A DNA stretch of 64,000 nucleotides from Skermania sp. ID1734 (GTDB taxonomy: Bacteria > Actinomycetota > Actinomycetes > Mycobacteriales > Mycobacteriaceae). The notes under the pieces were generated by a model that saw only the letters and a list, made by a program, of their open reading frames with translations, ran no database searches and was not told the DNA's origin. The stretch spans positions 1 through 64,000 of the forward strand of contig NZ_VLIY01000009.1 of the NCBI RefSeq assembly GCF_007489285.1, written 5' to 3'. Positions 23,301 to 41,403 of the stretch are shown piece after piece. The position numbers were made by a program, and so were the translations under genes. Each line of letters begins with the position of its first letter. Positions within the stretch are counted from its first letter, which is position 1.

Positions 23301-23960
23301 TTAGCCGCGCTGCGAGCCCGCCTTCGGTTGGACCACGACGCAGCACCGACCACTTCGCGGCACCAGGACGGCCCGCTGCGGCGCCTCCCCAACCCCGTCG
23401 AGCATCCCTCGGATGAGCTCAAGGTTGAGACCGCACACCAATTCGGTGTGCCGGCGCGACAGTTGGTGGAAGGGACAATTTCGCAGTTCGATGCGCCCGT
23501 CGGCGTCCTCGACCGGTTCGTAGCCGCAGTCCCGTAGCGCAGACGTCACGTCCCGCCCGGATGCTGCCGCACGGCCGGCCCGCCGCGCCGCGGCGTCGAC
23601 AGTGGCGCGCACCGCGCCTGTCTCGTCGGCAGCTACGGCATCTGCCAGCAGGCCACCCAACAATGCGTAGTTGCGCGGGGGTACCGAGACGGTGAGCTCA
23701 TCCTGTGTGCGCGTGTAGCGCTTCGCCGGTCGCCCCGCCCCCGGGCCGCCGCGCCCGTCGTCGCGGGCATAGCTGACGCTGAAGATGCCGGCGTCGGCGA
23801 GTTTGTCCAGGTGATATGCCGCGAGCGTCCGGCCGATGCCAGCCGCGGCCGCAGCGTCCTCGCGCGAAACCGGCTCGTCGCGCGACGCCACGTATTCGTA
23901 CAGCCGACGGCGCACCGGATCATCGAGGCTGCTCAGCCCCGCAACGGGATCGGTGCTCAT
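23301..23960 (-). CDS. SufR-like winged-helix regulator with conserved cysteines
   Basis: A 219-residue regulator. Residues 1-85 form an ArsR/DeoR-type winged helix (LDDPVRRRLYEYVASRDEPV, then GRTLAAYHLDKLADAGIF and the wing GRGGPGAGRPAKRY). The C-terminal half carries NCPFHQL and, 13 residues later, VCGLNLELIRGML, the C-x13-C spacing also seen in SufR-type regulators that bind an Fe-S cluster; a further Cys pair lies at the end (RCCVVV). It is divergent from the DoxX-folE operon, so it most likely controls that operon and itself. A paralogue at 35485-36138 lies next to ferredoxin. Cluster binding is inference. The start is chosen from GGAGG seven bases upstream. Confidence 0.82.
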   Translation of the reverse strand: MSTDPVAGLSSLDDPVRRRLYEYVASRDEPVSREDAAAAAGIGRTLAAYHLDKLADAGIFSVSYARDDGRGGPGAGRPAKRYTRTQDELTVSVPPRNYALLGGLLADAVAADETGAVRATVDAAARRAGRAAASGRDVTSALRDCGYEPVEDADGRIELRNCPFHQLSRRHTELVCGLNLELIRGMLDGVGEAPQRAVLVPRSGRCCVVVQPKAGSQRG

Positions 23961-24023
23961 GTCGACCTCCATATCTATAACCAATATATCTTGACAACCA
24001 CTGCCGAGGCGCTCACTCTAAAG

Positions 24024-24037
24024 ACAATATTCATTGT
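24024..24037. promoter_or_regulatory. Candidate operator ACAATATTCATTGT
   Basis: A 5-bp inverted repeat (ACAAT / ATTGT) with a 4-base spacer sits 18 bp before the DoxX start, in an unusually AT-rich divergent promoter region of 95 bp. It is the best dyad there and a candidate site for the divergent regulator; the AT-rich stretch at 23970-23995 may hold the regulator's promoter. Confidence 0.35.
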
Positions 24038-24055
24038 TGATAGAAGGAGTCGGAG

Positions 24056-24526
24056 ATGATCACCACCGCTCTGCGCAGTAATCCAGCACCATCGTTTGCC
24101 GTGGCGCGCGACCGAGTGTGCAACGACCCGGCGTTCGGAGCGTTCCTGCTCTTACGCATCGGCTTCGCCGTCCTGCCGCTCTGGATGGGCATCGACAAGT
24201 TCCTCAACAAACTGACCTACTGGCCGCATTACCTGGCGCCGTGGATCACCGATCTGCTTCCGTTCACGGCGCAGACCGCGATGTACGTGGTCGGCGCGAT
24301 CGAGGTAGTCGCGGGCTTCGCGGTGGCGATCAAGCCCCGCTACGCCAGCTACATCGTCGCCGCCTGGCTCGCCGGCATCATCGTCAACCTGCTCACCTAT
24401 CCCGGCTTCTACGACGTCGCCCTGCGCGACTTCGGTTTGCTGCTCGGTGCACTCACGTTGGCGCGATTGGCATCGGTGTACGACCCGTCGTGGTTCCGGC
24501 ACTCAACCGCAGCGCGGGCGCGATGA
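24056..24526 (+). CDS. DoxX/YkgB-type membrane protein
   Basis: A 156-residue four-helix membrane protein. The segments are AFGAFLLLRIGFAVLPLWMG (about residues 28-47), the PFTAQTAMYVVGAIEVVAGF region, IVAAWLAGIIVNLLTYPGFY, and a last helix FGLLLGALTLARLA. The motif WMGIDKFLNKLTYWPHYLAP fits the DoxX-like / YkgB family, whose members are linked to quinone or thiol redox stress and to surface hypochlorous acid resistance in some bacteria. An AGAAGGAG ribosome binding site precedes the ATG. The stop overlaps the start of the GTP cyclohydrolase gene (ATGA), a sign of translational coupling. It is divergent from the SufR-like regulator. Confidence 0.8.
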   Translation: MITTALRSNPAPSFAVARDRVCNDPAFGAFLLLRIGFAVLPLWMGIDKFLNKLTYWPHYLAPWITDLLPFTAQTAMYVVGAIEVVAGFAVAIKPRYASYIVAAWLAGIIVNLLTYPGFYDVALRDFGLLLGALTLARLASVYDPSWFRHSTAARAR

Positions 24527-25113
24527 TGACGCAGACCGTTCTGAACCTCCTCGACTGCGGCCTGCCGGATCTCGCTGCGGCCGAGGAGGCAGCGGCCGCA
24601 TTTCTGCGCGCTCTCGGCGTCGCCACAGACACCGAGAACATGCGCGAGACACCGGCCAGGATGGCCCGCGCGTATGCCGAACTGTTCAGCTCGGACCCGT
24701 TCGAACCGACCACGTTTCCTAATGACGAGGGCTACGACGAACTCGTTGTGGCACGTGACATCCCGCTACGGTCGGTGTGCGAGCACCACCTGCTGCCGTT
24801 CACTGGGACCGCGTGCGTCGGCTATTTACCCGGAGAGCGAATTCTTGGACTCTCGAAGCTGGCGCGCGTTGTCGAGCATTTTGCCTGCCGACCGCAGGTT
24901 CAGGAGCGGCTGACCAAGCAGATAGCCGATTGGCTCACCACCGAACTCAATCCGCGAGCGGTGGGCGTCGTGATCCGCGCCGAACACACGTGCATGACGC
25001 TGCGCGGGGTGCAGGCAACGGGCTCGACCACGTTGACATCGGCGCTACTAGGCAGGCTGCGCACCGACGCTAGTTCGCGACAGGAATTCTTCGCGCTCGC
25101 GGGCATCGGCTGA
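24523..25113 (+). CDS. folE: GTP cyclohydrolase I, probable second copy
   Basis: A 196-residue enzyme converting GTP to 7,8-dihydroneopterin triphosphate, the first step to folate and other pterins. Zinc ligands are visible: Cys86 and His89 in SVCEHHLLPFTG, and Cys157 in RAEHTCMTLRGVQ. Other family marks are ILGLSKLARVVEHFA and QERLTKQIADWL. The size fits the catalytic core of the family. The usual mycobacterial folE lies in a folP-folB-folK cluster beside ftsH; here it is coupled to a DoxX-like gene, so this is probably an additional copy. Start is taken at the ATG overlapping the DoxX stop. Whether it supplies folate or a special pterin is unknown. Confidence 0.92.
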   Translation: MMTQTVLNLLDCGLPDLAAAEEAAAAFLRALGVATDTENMRETPARMARAYAELFSSDPFEPTTFPNDEGYDELVVARDIPLRSVCEHHLLPFTGTACVGYLPGERILGLSKLARVVEHFACRPQVQERLTKQIADWLTTELNPRAVGVVIRAEHTCMTLRGVQATGSTTLTSALLGRLRTDASSRQEFFALAGIG

Positions 25114-34598: not shown

Positions 34599-35495
34599 GT
34601 GCGAAGCGATGGTGATTCATGGGATATCAAAACCAGCGTGGGGGCGACGGCCCTGTTCGTCGCGGCCGCGCGTGGATTGGCCGCACGGCAGCCGGATCCG
34701 CTGGCGGTCGACCCGTTCGCGGAGGTGTTTTGCCGCGCGGCCGGTGAGCAGTGGTCTGCGCTGTTCGAGCCGGGCGCGGACACCTCGGACCACCCGTTGG
34801 TGTCGACCGCGTTCGGCCGAAACTTCCAGGAGTTTCAGGCCGCCCGCACCCGGTTCTTCGACACCTACCTGACGCGGGCGGTAGGTGCCGGGGTGCGTCA
34901 AGTGGTGATCTTGGCCGCGGGCCTGGACTCGCGCGCATACCGACTGCCCTTTCCTGCCGGCACAGTCGTCTACGAGCTCGACCGTGCCCCGGTCCTCGAG
35001 TTCAAGCGCGAGGTACTCGCTGAGCACGGCGCGGAATTGACAGCGCAGCGCTGTGAGGTCGCTGTCGACCTTCGTGACGACTGGGCAAAGGCTCTGCAGC
35101 AGAACGGCTTCGATGCCGCAAACCCGACCGCCTGGCTGATCGAGGGCCTGTTGCTCTACCTGCCGGCCGACGCTCAGGACCGGATCTTCGAGACGGTCGA
35201 CGCGCTGTCCGCCAGCGGCAGTCAGGTGGCCATCGAGCAGATGGACACGATCCCCGCGGACGTGTACTCGCAGATGACCAAGCCGTCAGCGGAGGCGCCG
35301 GGGCGAAACCAGTGGGCAACACTGCTGTACAACGAGCCGAAAAGTGAAGCCTCCGAATGGTTCTCGCAGCACCACTGGGCAGCCAATCGGACCGAACTGG
35401 CAGACTACCTCGCCGAACTCGGGGTCGCCGTCGATCCCGACGCCGGGCAGATCCGGCCGACCGCCGCCAGCTTTGTGGATGCGATCAAGCGCTAG
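34599..35495 (+). CDS. SAM-dependent methyltransferase, mycobacterial LCMT-like family
   Basis: A 298-residue methyltransferase of the large mycobacterial family related to leucine carboxyl methyltransferases (TIGR00027 type). Family marks are the N-terminal WDIKTSVGATALFVAAARGL, the SAM site VVILAAGLDSRAYRLPFP and the NPTAWLIEGLLLYLPADAQD motif. Such genes occur in many copies in mycobacteria; substrates are mostly unknown. GTG start at 34599. The last 11 bp overlap the convergent regulator. Confidence 0.9.
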   Translation: MRSDGDSWDIKTSVGATALFVAAARGLAARQPDPLAVDPFAEVFCRAAGEQWSALFEPGADTSDHPLVSTAFGRNFQEFQAARTRFFDTYLTRAVGAGVRQVVILAAGLDSRAYRLPFPAGTVVYELDRAPVLEFKREVLAEHGAELTAQRCEVAVDLRDDWAKALQQNGFDAANPTAWLIEGLLLYLPADAQDRIFETVDALSASGSQVAIEQMDTIPADVYSQMTKPSAEAPGRNQWATLLYNEPKSEASEWFSQHHWAANRTELADYLAELGVAVDPDAGQIRPTAASFVDAIKR

Positions 35496-36138
35496 GCGTC
35501 ACCAGGTGGGCCACGCAGCGGTCCGGCTCGACGAACGGGTCCAGTCTGTCCACCGTCACCGCCGCACCCTGGGACTCCAAGGCGCCCTGCATGATCCCAA
35601 GATGGATGGGGCAGACGACGGTGCTCTGCGTCTCCGACATTTCCAGGAATGGGCAGTGGCGCAATTGGATATTCGCCTCCGCGTCCAGTTCCGGGGCGAA
35701 GCCAAGCCGTTCCAGCACCTCGACGAGGCTGCCGACCGCCTGCTTTGGCGTCGCCGGTCGTGTCGGCTCGGGCAGCAGGTGGCGTCCCCAGTTTTTGCCG
35801 GCCTCGGTCGCGCGCGCGGCGACATCGGGTTCCGCGGCGAGACTGGCCGTCAGGACATTGGCGAGCAATCGGTAGTTTCGCGGCCCGGCCGGGTCCATAC
35901 CAGCCCTGGCGCGGAACATCAGCGGCGGGCGGCCCGGCCCGCTGCGCGGTAGCTCGACGCGCTCGGCCTGCTCGTTCCGGACCAGCGCGTCGAGGTGGAA
36001 GCGCACGGTGTTGGGATGCAGGTCCAACCGCTCGGCAAGTTCCTGAATGCTCGACGCCTCACGTGAACTATGTAGAACGGCAAGGACATCGGCGCGGCGT
36101 CCACCGAGTTCCACGCCACTTTCCGCTGGAGTACTCAC
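35485..36138 (-). CDS. SufR-like winged-helix regulator coupled to ferredoxin
   Basis: A 217-residue regulator similar in build to the one at 23301-23960. Winged helix in the first 85 residues (SIQELAERLDLHPNTVRFHL, then the wing ELPRSGPGRPPLMF). In the C-terminal half HCPFLEM is followed 13 residues later by VCPIHLGIMQG, the same C-x13-C spacing as its paralogue, with a last Cys in EPDRCVAHL. The gene starts with a GTG overlapping the ferredoxin stop (GTGA), so it is co-translated with fdxA. A cluster-sensing regulator made along with an Fe-S protein is a natural pairing; cluster binding is inference. Confidence 0.8.
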   Translation of the reverse strand: MSTPAESGVELGGRRADVLAVLHSSREASSIQELAERLDLHPNTVRFHLDALVRNEQAERVELPRSGPGRPPLMFRARAGMDPAGPRNYRLLANVLTASLAAEPDVAARATEAGKNWGRHLLPEPTRPATPKQAVGSLVEVLERLGFAPELDAEANIQLRHCPFLEMSETQSTVVCPIHLGIMQGALESQGAAVTVDRLDPFVEPDRCVAHLVTPSA

Positions 36139-36485
36139 GTCTGTACGCTCCGTTTCGCCAATCGCGCGACCACTGGGGCGTCGACCCCTAGCGGGCCGAG
36201 TTTGGCTGCACCGCCAGGTGACCCGAGCGGCTCGTCGTGACCGGGCAGCGGCTGAAAGAAGAAGGCGGCGTTGTCGTCGCGGTACTGCTCCCACTCCGCG
36301 GGCAGGTCGTCTTCATAGTAAATCGCATCAACCGGGCAAACCGGCACGCAGGCACCACAGTCGACGCACTCGTCCGGATGGATGTAGAGACTTCGACCAC
36401 CCTCGTAGATGCAGTCGACCGGACACTCCTCGACGCAGCTGCGGTCCATGACATCCACGCACGCTTCCCCGATCACATATGTCAC
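36135..36485 (-). CDS. fdxA: 7Fe-4S ferredoxin
   Basis: A 116-residue ferredoxin with the FdxA layout. CVEECPVDC near residue 17 and the DECVDCGACVPVCP motif near residue 39 provide ligands for a 3Fe-4S and a 4Fe-4S cluster. The remainder (DNAAFFFQPLPGHDEPLGSP) is the family's C-terminal extension. In M. tuberculosis fdxA is part of the DosR hypoxia regulon; I see no 20-bp DosR box here. Its promoter region holds a perfect 9-bp inverted repeat at 36493-36517. The regulator gene follows in the same operon. Confidence 0.94.
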   Translation of the reverse strand: MTYVIGEACVDVMDRSCVEECPVDCIYEGGRSLYIHPDECVDCGACVPVCPVDAIYYEDDLPAEWEQYRDDNAAFFFQPLPGHDEPLGSPGGAAKLGPLGVDAPVVARLAKRSVQT

Positions 36486-36623: not shown

Positions 36624-38348
36624 GTGGCAGATCTAGCTACGCAACGCGTCGAAGAGTTGCAACCGGTACGCCCCTATCCCCGCCGAATAGCGCCGAAAGG
36701 CTCCCACCTCTACAGCTACATCACCACCACCGATCCCAAGGCCCTCGGCATTCTCTATATTTCCTCGTCGCTGGCCTTCTTCCTGATCGGCGGGCTGATG
36801 GCGCTGCTGATGCGCGCCGAACTGGCCGTGCCGGGAATGCAGTTCCTGTCCAACGAGCAGTACAACCAGTTGTTCACCATGCACGGCACGATCATGCTGC
36901 TGTTCTATGCGACGCCGATCGTGTTCGGATTCGCCAACTGCATTCTGCCGCTGCAGATCGGCGCTCCCGACGTTGCATTTCCCCGCCTGAACGCCCTGAG
37001 CTACTGGCTGTACCTGTTCGGCGCCACCATGGCCACGGCAGGGTTCATCACGCCGGGCGGGGCCGCCGATTTCGGCTGGACGGCCTACTCGCCGCTTACT
37101 GACGCAATGCACGCGCCCGGCGTCGGCGCCGACCTGTGGGTCATGGGACTGGCCGTCTCCGGTCTCGGCACCATCCTCGGCGGCGTCAACATGATCACGA
37201 CGGTGATTTGCCTGCGCTGCCCCGGCATGACCATGTTCCGGATGCCGATCTTCACCTGGAACATCTTCATCACGAGCATCCTGGTCCTGCTCGCGTTCCC
37301 CATTCTGACGGCCGCGTTGATGGGTCTCGAATACGATCGCCGCCTTGGTGGGCACATCTATGCCCCGGCCTCCGGCGGTGCGATTTTGTGGCAGCACCTG
37401 TTCTGGTTCTTCGGTCATCCCGAGGTGTACATCGTCGCGCTGCCCTTCTTCGGCATCGTGACAGAAGTGTTCCCGGTGTTCAGCCGAAAGCCGGTATTCG
37501 GTTACACCGCACTGGTTTTCGCGACGATCAGCATTGCGGCGTTGTCGGTGGCGGTGTGGGCGCACCACATGTACGCGACCGGTGCGGTGCTGCTCCCGTT
37601 CTTCAGTTTCATGACCTTCCTGATCGCCGTACCGACCGGGGTGAAGTTCTTCAACTGGATCGGCACCATGTGGAAGGGCAAGTTAACTTTCGAAACGCCC
37701 ATGCTGTTCTCTATCGGCTTCGTGGTGACATTCCTGTTCGGCGGGCTGACCGGCGTTATCTTGGCCAGCCCCCCGCTGGACTTCCACGTGACCGACTCCT
37801 ATTTCGTGGTGGCGCACTTCCACTACGTGCTGTTCGGCACCATCGTGTTCGCTACCTATGCGGGAATCTATTTCTGGTTCCCGAAGATGACGGGTCGCAT
37901 GCTCGATGAGCGGCTGGGCAAGTGGCATTTCTGGGCCACCTTCATCGGTTTCCACAGCACGTTCCTGATCCAGCATTGGCTCGGTGCCGAAGGAATGCCA
38001 AGGCGCTACGCCGACTACCTGCCCAGCGACAATTTCACCGTGCTGAACAGCGTGTCGACGATTGGCGCGTTCGTCCTCGGCGGATCGCTGTTGCCGTTCG
38101 TATGGAATCTTTTCCGGAGCTGGCGCTATGGCGAGATGGTGACGGTCGACGATCCGTGGGGTTTCGGAAATTCACTCGAGTGGGCCACGACTTGCCCGCC
38201 CCCGCGGCACAACTTCTATGAGCTGCCGCGAATCCGTTCCGAGCGGCCGGCCTTCGAGCTGCACTACCCGCACATGGTCGAGCGGATGCGAAAGGAATCG
38301 CACGTGGGCTGGGGGTCGGATACCGAGGACGTTGCCGTTACGCACTGA
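36624..38348 (+). CDS. ctaD: Cytochrome c oxidase subunit I
   Basis: A 574-residue haem-copper oxidase subunit with twelve membrane segments. Haem and copper ligands are visible: His in FTMHGTIML, the cross-linked His-Tyr pair in [14 protein letters not shown], the His pair in [10 protein letters not shown], and [11 protein letters not shown]. It reduces oxygen as part of the aa3 branch. GTG start after GAGGAGGGG. In mycobacteria the main ctaD lies beside serB2; here neighbours are fdxA and an MFS gene, so it may be an extra copy. No ctaC or ctaE lies nearby, so it must pair with subunits encoded elsewhere. Confidence 0.95.
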
Positions 38349-40259: not shown

Positions 40260-40870
40260 GCGTTGGCCTGCGTTGCCATCAGCACCGGGAAGCCGGTCGG
40301 ATCGCCGCGGTAGAAGACGGCCTCGTATGCCTCGGCGACGTCGGCGGACATCAGTCCCAGCGTCTGCAAAGTCGTGCGGGCGAACTGAACCGGCGACTGC
40401 GGTCCTGCCGTGATGACGTCCCCGTCGGAAACGGCGCGCTCATCGACGTACTCGTCCGCGCCCGAATAACCGGTGGCGGCAAGGTATTCGGTGGCGGCGC
40501 TGGTGTGGCGCCGGCCGTTGAGCAAACCAGCGCGGGCAAGGCCCGCGGTGGCGCCGCAGATCGCCGCAACCGGCACCCCGGCATCCAGAAGTCGCCGCGC
40601 CAGTTCGACAAAGGCGGTGCCGCCGCCGGCGTCCCACATGGTCGAACCCGCCAGCACCAGGAGGGCGCTGTCCGCGACATCGCCGACGGTTACGTCCGGC
40701 ACCACCGTCAACCCGCCCATGGTGGTGATCGGGTGCGTCGACTCACCCACTGTCACGATCTCGAACGGCGTACCCGTAAACCGTCCGGTCCGCAATTCCG
40801 TGAGGAGATGGCCGACTTCGAGTTCCGCGAAATCGTCGTACACCGCTACGTGGATGACCCGCCTATCCAT
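40256..40870 (-). CDS. DJ-1/PfpI family protein
   Basis: A 204-residue protein of the class I glutamine amidotransferase-like fold, DJ-1/PfpI type. The nucleophile elbow is VAAICGATAGLARAGLL, with the Cys at the elbow. The acidic residue that usually supports it lies in YDDFAELEVGHLL near the N-terminus. Members act as glyoxalases, deglycases, isonitrile hydratases or chaperones. No Shine-Dalgarno precedes the ATG; instead TTGACA and a large palindrome lie within 40 bp upstream, so the transcript may be leaderless. The MarR gene follows with a 4-bp overlap. Confidence 0.85.
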   Translation of the reverse strand: MDRRVIHVAVYDDFAELEVGHLLTELRTGRFTGTPFEIVTVGESTHPITTMGGLTVVPDVTVGDVADSALLVLAGSTMWDAGGGTAFVELARRLLDAGVPVAAICGATAGLARAGLLNGRRHTSAATEYLAATGYSGADEYVDERAVSDGDVITAGPQSPVQFARTTLQTLGLMSADVAEAYEAVFYRGDPTGFPVLMATQANA

Positions 40871-40874
40871 AGTC

Positions 40875-40901
40875 AATATGCTGTCATCATGACAGGATAT
40901 T
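40875..40901. promoter_or_regulatory. 27-bp near-perfect palindrome, probable MarR operator
   Basis: The core CTGTCATCATGACAG (40881-40895) is a perfect 7-bp inverted repeat around one base, extended by AATAT and ATATT arms with a single mismatch pair. It fills the 32-bp gap before the PfpI gene and ends five bases from its ATG. On the minus strand TTGACA at 40903-40908 could be the -35 element. As RNA it could also act as a hairpin terminator for the gene upstream. Confidence 0.65.
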
Positions 40902-40902
40902 G

Positions 40903-41403
40903 TCAATTGGCGGAGTAGTAACCATTGCCGCCGCCGAAATGGTGGCCCTTGGAGCTGCAACCCCAGCCGCCGCGCTCCCCACCGTTTCCGCAACTGGCAC
41001 CGGCGTAGCTGATTTCGGCCCCGCGCCAGCCGATCGTGTTCCCGTTCGCATCGGTCACGGGCACACCTAGCTGTCGACTTCCGGAGCGACCAGTGAATCC
41101 CGGCTCCGGGTGTGCCGGGAGCCACGGGACGTCGATCACCAGGTTTGTCACCATGGGCCGCACCGGAGAGCCGGTGATTGTGAGCGCAATGGGCTGCGGA
41201 AACGCGCAACCGACGTTGCCGGTGGGATAGATCGCGCACTCGGTGCCGTCGCCGAGATCGAAGTAAGCGGTGTCGCCGACGAGGTACTGGTTTGGATCGA
41301 CCGGCACCGGCTCGTAGGGATTCGGGAGCGCGCTCGCGGTTGCCGCGCCGGCGAGTAGGACCGCTCCGGCGGCAGCGGTCACAAGCGCGATTCCGACCTT
41401 CAT
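40903..41403 (-). CDS. Secreted protein of unknown function
   Basis: A 166-residue exported protein. Signal peptide MKVGIALVTAAAGAVLLAGA is cleaved after about TASA. The mature part has four Cys (GTECAIY, GNVGCAFP, GASCGNGG and WGCSSKG), enough for two disulfides, and ends in a Gly/His-rich tail (GHHFGGGNGYYS). The ATG follows a strong GGAGGGAG. I see a resemblance to other mycobacterial secreted proteins but no named family. The stop lies next to the palindrome before the PfpI gene. Confidence 0.78.
   Translation of the reverse strand: MKVGIALVTAAAGAVLLAGAATASALPNPYEPVPVDPNQYLVGDTAYFDLGDGTECAIYPTGNVGCAFPQPIALTITGSPVRPMVTNLVIDVPWLPAHPEPGFTGRSGSRQLGVPVTDANGNTIGWRGAEISYAGASCGNGGERGGWGCSSKGHHFGGGNGYYSAN

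Follow-up and report, generated by a model that had tools for sequence, protein, structure and literature searches.

Why a GTP cyclohydrolase I gene (folE) should stand directly behind a gene for a DoxX-like membrane protein and opposite a cysteine-bearing regulator gene is the question raised by this locus of Skermania sp. ID1734. The window, that is the whole stretch of DNA analyzed, comprises 64,000 nucleotides and lies on contig C56. The genome, 5.12 Mb in 56 contigs, is the sole member of its genus in the genome set compared. The original prediction placed three genes here, a divergent regulator, a DoxX-type gene and folE, and reading frames together with Pfam matches confirmed the presence of all of them (Table 1). 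The regulator and doxX are divergently oriented, and the region between them holds two operator-like sites, O1 and O2. The start of the regulator, an ATG at 23960 behind GGAGG, was picked from the sequence as the likeliest. The claimed translational coupling of doxX and folE was also seen, as an ATGA overlap between the doxX stop (TGA, 24524-24526) and a folE start at ATG 24523, the other possible start being ATG 24526. Our preferred reading, to which we assign a probability of roughly 0.6, is that doxX-folE is held off by a local repressor, probably one with an Fe-S cluster, and is freed when NO, redox or low-oxygen stress sets in.

Table 1. Features of the regulator, doxX and folE locus and of a related gene set in the same window (positions count from the first nucleotide of the window).
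Feature	Positions	Strand	Description	Basis
Regulator CDS	23301-23960	minus	ArsR-type winged-HTH, 219 aa	PF12840 and alignment A3
Operator-like site O1	23974-24001	plus	TCTA-N13-TTGAC, left half TCTATAACCAAT	
Operator-like palindrome O2	24017-24044	plus	TCTAAAGACAATATTCATTGTTGATAGA, 28 bp	
doxX	24056-24526	plus	DoxX-like membrane protein, 156 aa	PF07681 just below cut-off; alignment A2
Accessory folE	24523-25113	plus	GTP cyclohydrolase I	PF01227; presumed zinc-ligand motifs
Second C-x13-C regulator	35485-36294	minus	38% to the second regulator of a Rhodococcus plasmid	
fdxA-like frame	36135-36485	minus	73% to plasmid fdxA	
COX1 gene	36624-38348	plus	82% to ctaD	

The folE of the window is an extra copy, as had been proposed, because a scan of the genome located the canonical folE elsewhere, at C6:25850-26383, between frames that their translations name as ftsH-like and folP-like. 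The alternative, that the window gene is itself the housekeeping copy, is thereby ruled out. The two copies are 53% identical. The accessory protein matched PF01227 with an E value of 4.3e-62 (209.2 bits against a cut-off of 27) and TIGR00063 with 186.8 bits (cut-off 181.6), while its residues 16-189 of 195 align with solved GTP cyclohydrolase I. It carries the motifs CEHH and HTCM, which we take to be zinc ligands, and 51 of the 52 FolE rows match the patterns C[EQA]HH and H.CM. The gene is thus predicted to encode a zinc-type GTP cyclohydrolase I, with dihydroneopterin triphosphate as the predicted product.

A folE match was found in 118 of the 121 genomes searched, own genome included. The FolE tree was built from 52 of 57 domains (five duplicates removed), restricted to domains of at least 160 aa so that short or broken copies were excluded, and a single branch (support 100/100, length 1.24) split 40 accessory from 12 canonical-like domains, the terms "canonical" (given to L001 and L022-L032) and "accessory" being ours. 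Of 21 accessory-type folE loci examined, window included, 15 had the regulator nearby and 6 had DoxX, and in each of the 15 genomes with the regulator near such a folE, folE was matched at least once more. The window FolE clusters with three rows of other families, Flexivirga included, at modest support (88/88), which hints at acquisition by transfer. At two loci (L046 and L047, genomes G112 and G080) a folE of the accessory clade is the only folE match of its genome, and the clade may therefore also act as a housekeeping enzyme. In genomes G076 and G103 (loci L037 and L039) a further folE was found in each; its neighborhood is conserved between both, and the regulator was not found there.

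The regulator had been described as SufR-like, divergent from doxX and marked by a C-x13-C pattern. The pattern is present as CPFHQLSRRHTELVC, and the protein matched PF12840 (HTH_20) with an E value of 6.9e-9 (36 bits, cut-off 27). Its AlphaFold model has a mean pLDDT of 89.8 and a pTM of 0.63; the structure matches span the HTH half, the best being to ArsR-type HTH proteins, among them 6j05_A (Z 11.8, rmsd 2.0 over 80 residues), so that by both the HTH_20 score and 6j05_A the protein is an ArsR-type winged HTH. Foldseek gave no match at E <= 0.001 with this model or with that of DoxX, and no match to the C-terminal domain of the regulator stood out among the Foldseek matches listed. Alignment of the window protein with 68 of 93 regulators (A3, 69 rows) revealed four invariant cysteines, C162, C176, C206 and C207 (C-x13-C-x29-CC), while a further cysteine of the window protein, at position 145, is unconserved. 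The genome itself has three further matches to the regulator at E <= 0.001, including the second C-x13-C regulator of Table 1.

As for the SufR label, the general build stood: Rv1460 and cyanobacterial SufR are likewise HTH regulators whose three C-terminal cysteines have been proposed to ligate Fe-S (PMC6034842). The finer likeness did not, since a SufR_cyano model search of the regulator gave no listing at E 0.1 and the spacing of C203-C216-C244 in Rv1460, C-x12-C-x27-C as worked out from the residue numbers in that text (PMC6034842), differs from C-x13-C-x29-CC. Moreover, Rv1460 controls the suf operon (PMC6034842), whereas no suf genes adjoin the present regulator, the neighbors being a PF03372 gene, doxX, folE, an alpha/beta hydrolase gene and an SDR gene. 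ArnR of Corynebacterium glutamicum, which carries [4Fe-4S], senses NO and represses narKGHJI and hmp (PMC12343034), also combines a winged HTH with a C-terminal cysteine domain. Its cysteines C179-C193-C223 (C-x13-C-x29-C, again worked out from residue numbers) are spaced as the first three of our regulator, a likeness of spacing taken from the printed numbers (PMC12343034). Some relatives of the regulator adjoin nar genes, in keeping with ArnR as a nar repressor; unlike ArnR as described in that paper, the regulator has a fourth invariant cysteine and an NCPF motif, and it precedes doxX and folE. Oxygen is reported there to degrade the ArnR cluster only slowly, while its dinitrosyl form loses DNA binding (PMC12343034). 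Because the cysteine spacing equals that of ArnR, and given the chemistry of the ArnR cluster, an Fe-S cluster is the most likely ligand of the conserved cysteines and we infer that NO is a good candidate signal. We would therefore replace the SufR label with ArnR-like or with an unassigned Fe-S type. No ArnR-like frame was recognized beside narI in five stretches from genus g3, taken for Corynebacterium; the only frames there with a C-x-C-x-C pattern look non-coding by eye.

The same cysteines could instead hold zinc or react directly, and the regulator might then be a sensor of zinc or of thiol-reactive metalloids (Zn, As, Sb), with folE supplying folate when the pathway is poisoned. The nearest structures to its HTH are those of ArsR, CadC and CzrA, and the terminal CC pair could bind soft metals. 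A precedent for a protective extra folE is the ars2 operon of Brevundimonas nasdae, where folE likewise shares a stress operon with an ArsR-type regulator. This folE made Escherichia coli resistant to arsenic and antimony, and folate synthesis is suggested by the authors to be a target of the poison (PMC9144182). That folE, however, has arsenic genes around it, and DoxX goes unmentioned in the text of PMC9144182, while no ars-like gene was recognized by eye among the ten neighbor clusters common to at least five of 80 named loci. Furthermore, the cysteines lie outside the HTH, with a spacing of the ArnR/SufR type. Zinc sparing was also considered and is unlikely, because the accessory FolE itself carries the zinc-ligand motifs. 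The Zur-controlled FolE_IB2 of Cupriavidus metallidurans is likewise an additional GTP cyclohydrolase with a dedicated regulator; it is of the Fe/Mn/Co-dependent FolE_IB type and is made under zinc starvation (PMC13192273), in contrast to the PF01227 enzyme encountered here. We thus regard a metal sensor as unlikely.

The DoxX subfamily of the window was found at E <= 1e-10 in 47 of 397 order-level genomes, a count in which only candidates from a loose first look were scored. Among the best 30 order-level loci (29 analyzed by script plus the window), the regulator lies within 300 bp of doxX in 29 and about 1 kb away in one, while folE lies within 600 bp downstream in 18 (one split across frames, L082). 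In the named set, the best 80 of 530 confirmed loci by similarity to the window protein, a divergent regulator was found within 300 bp in 65, none in 13, and the contig edge cut off two; folE was downstream in 10 (two partial or split, L088 and L150). Within the 65 loci with a divergent regulator, folE is downstream in 10 and absent from 54, one ending at a contig edge. Since the arrangement recurs across actinobacterial families, it is not due to chance. The expected synteny of DoxX and folE was borne out insofar as the pair recurs elsewhere, but the conserved partner of DoxX is the regulator, folE being optional (18/30 and 10/80). The regulator and DoxX thus form the conserved core, which folE accompanies at some loci and not at others. 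On a regulator tree of 100 rows (65 with DoxX only, 27 with DoxX and folE, 8 with folE only; L053 with a broken frame and L084 with a low score left out), the DoxX-plus-folE label requires 12 changes, at least 11 of them forced by supported branches, although the program flags long branches meeting. It follows that folE repeatedly joined or left the regulator-DoxX unit. Rows from the family of the window genome are placed among named mycobacteria on this tree, as befits an actinobacterium of Mycobacteriaceae type. Among titles and abstract openings, no literature was found that links DoxX with GTP cyclohydrolase or folE as this unit.

Such mobility is what would be expected if the switch, redox or NO, served DoxX only and folE were a passenger without shared physiology; the 54 of 65 loci lacking folE and the 12 label changes both agree with this. 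Yet the association is a repeated one and the accessory folE forms one clade. In addition, among nine regulator-folE loci without DoxX, a palindrome like O2 stands before folE in four and before a reductase gene preceding folE in a fifth; it is missing from the remaining four, which form their own clade on the regulator tree. A passenger folE therefore appears to us rather improbable.

Several observations concern individual loci. The partial or split folE frames of L082, L088 and L150 may reflect sequencing error or decay. Rhodococcus koreensis DSM 44498 has two regulator|DoxX loci (L087 and L090), with folE at only one of them. The DoxX subfamily was also present in two MAGs titled Acidobacteria (L123 and L134), the latter with the regulator too. 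Elsewhere, Pfam identified a DUF2231 membrane protein near L041 and L048, and a ferredoxin-reductase-type flavoprotein near L036, L045, L049, L105 and L115.

The two sites of the intergenic region are related to each other. O2 lies directly before AGGAG (24045-24049), the ribosome site of doxX, while O1 overlaps a TTGAC box and adjoins the ribosome site of the regulator. In the window, TTGACA and TCTAAA lie 20 bp apart, which is poor for sigma-70. Across 87 distinct regions of a set of 88, the relaxed O2 pattern T[CG]TA-N20-TA[CG]A occurs in 78 divergent regions (mean 0.29, maximum 2 in 200 dinucleotide shuffles) and is missing from nine, and the strict form TCTA-N20-TAGA occurs in 66 (mean 0.05, maximum 1). 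These shuffles overstate independence, because the regions are related and the patterns were picked after viewing them. For L063, the upstream palindrome was used as O2. The O1 pattern T[CG]TA-N13-TTGAC was found in 85 of the 87 regulator|doxX regions, and both patterns occur together in 77, with starts 38-47 bp apart. No further O2 match was found in 647,935 bp, comprising the rest of the loci and the window. In co-directional loci, where the regulator precedes doxX, the palindrome is at the doxX start in six of six, in a near-perfect form such as TCTAATACCAATCATTATTGGTTTTAGA. Taken together, O2 is a well supported predicted operator, and the regulator would be its reader, along with that of O1.

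Arm positions 5, 6 and 7 of O2 pair in 55, 43 and 64 of the 78 regions, where 37, 31 and 38 would be expected if they were independent, and position 8 pairs in 31 (20 expected); at positions 9 and 11-14 pairing over the 78 regions is no better than independence. The left-arm letter at position 5 is A in all 30 O2-bearing loci whose regulator has a TLAA-type helix, in 7 of 40 with other non-lysine regulators and in 6 of 8 with regulators ending in lysine. On the right arm the TLAA class has no uniform letter (A 17, T 10, G 3 of 30). This link between left arm and recognition helix fits the predicted direct reading of O2 by the regulator, and it is confounded with kinship. That the palindrome is instead an RNA hairpin before the ribosome site, controlling doxX translation and not serving as a repressor operator, is very improbable: its arms do covary in part and reach the Shine-Dalgarno sequence, but a related half-site lies on the far side in O1 (85/87 by the O1 pattern) and the left-arm letters follow the recognition helix, subject to the kinship just mentioned.

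Returning to the repressor, a scan of the Skermania genome with a pattern derived from the window's O2, which is a perfect match by construction, gave one other site with two mismatches, compared with five for the reversed control. The scan thus gave no sign of a wider regulon among sites close to O2; weaker sites, such as O1, escape it, and for this reason we neither claim nor exclude a further target.

The product of doxX matched PF07681 over positions 2-81 of 85 with an E value of 2.1e-4 and 22.3 bits, below the Pfam cut-off of 23.6; alignment A2 (61 rows) joins it with 60 of 108 proteins from the DoxX loci. A helical bundle is predicted (pLDDT 91.3), the best PDB match of which was 9h9e, TMEM35A/NACHO (Z 12.6, rmsd 2.4 over 119 residues), bearing in mind that helical bundles match easily; vitamin K carboxylase chains were matched with Z 4 to 5.6. 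TMEM35A is akin to DoxX. The role of the protein may be quinone-linked. Oxidative stress is reported to raise the expression of DoxX-like members in Mycobacterium tuberculosis and Haemophilus influenzae (PMC12161575), and MSMEG_3255a, another "DoxX subfamily" gene that may fall outside the subfamily considered here, was lower in a sigF mutant (PMC4694148).

Some neighborhoods make a stress link for doxX-folE plausible, namely those with nar genes, fdxA or truncated haemoglobin. Both fdxA and truncated haemoglobins are in keeping with a response to low oxygen or to nitrosative stress. Among the 80 named loci, a NarI-like protein is encoded near seven, all mycobacterial, and an FdxA-like protein near eight, and no NarI was found in the examined flanks of the other 73; 62 of the 80 loci as examined are over 8 kb long. 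NarI and NarH of L141 were identified by Pfam. Twelve genomes of the same family have DoxX as well as NarI; the two are adjacent in three (G180, G217 and G228) and apart, at the places listed, in eight, own genome included, one having no place listed. Conversely, neither the regulator profile nor the DoxX profile had a match in 30 NarI loci extended by 1.5 kb flanks. Dormancy-type regulons include nitrate reductase genes (PMC5069765), while DoxX goes unmentioned in the accessible parts of PMC5069765 and PMC10034137, papers on OsdR and on DosRS of Mycobacterium abscessus.

In Rhodococcus plasmids, regulator and DoxX adjoin a second HTH regulator that is divergent from fdxA and ctaD. An annotated folE accompanies regulator and DoxX in pDK3 and in R. 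pseudokoreensis, and a group III truncated haemoglobin lies beside the unit in pDK3. Plasmid pRHL1 of R. jostii RHA1 encodes regulator, DoxX and FolE proteins 98-100% identical to those of pDK3 and has both the O1 and O2 sites. In the window itself, a second C-x13-C regulator and an fdxA-like frame, divergent from COX1, lie 11 kb from the doxX locus (Table 1), and a like set (second regulator, fdxA, ctaD) is found near regulator|DoxX in three Rhodococcus plasmids. Truncated haemoglobin was not found in the window.

On this basis the locus may operate as a self-contained switch. The regulator would be a winged-HTH dimer, as the palindromic form of O2 suggests, with a C-terminal cysteine domain in which C-x13-C-x29-C(C) most likely ligates an Fe-S cluster. 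In the absence of stress the dimer would sit on O1, covering the TTGAC box, and on O2, which spans the region from a putative -10 to the ribosome site, and thus block both its own gene and doxX-folE. Once the cluster is nitrosylated, oxidized or lost, the regulator would leave the DNA, and DoxX and FolE would be made together through translational coupling. DoxX could then act as a quinone-linked membrane redox protein, while FolE would raise the supply of dihydroneopterin triphosphate, and with it that of folate, once reduced folates run short or the housekeeping enzyme limits the pathway. The purpose of folE is the weakest step, for which the logic of the Brevundimonas ars operon may hold with another signal. 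The more general proposition is that of a widespread actinobacterial regulator family which senses NO or redox state, has a 28-bp operator of its own and couples a quinone-linked DoxX to an inducible pterin and folate supply, so that restoring reduced folates would be a distinct part of how cells respond to nitrosative or hypoxic stress. It is put forward tentatively, and we would sooner doubt it than rely on it.

With its regulator family, predicted operator and minimal set of targets, the locus is open to experiment in common laboratory actinobacteria such as R. jostii RHA1, on pRHL1. If the signal is NO or redox, stress sensing would be linked to folate supply. The regulator-DoxX-folE unit may also explain some second folE copies in actinobacterial genomes. 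Finally, our first guess at an operator, TATNNNCAATATA with up to two mismatches, had seven matches in the window against 2.82 expected, a number reached by 2 of 100 shuffles, and was replaced by the palindrome; at 40868-40908 the window holds an inverted repeat, CTGTCAT-C-ATGACAG flanked by CAATAT and ATATTG, which matched TATNNNCAATATA with two mismatches per arm.
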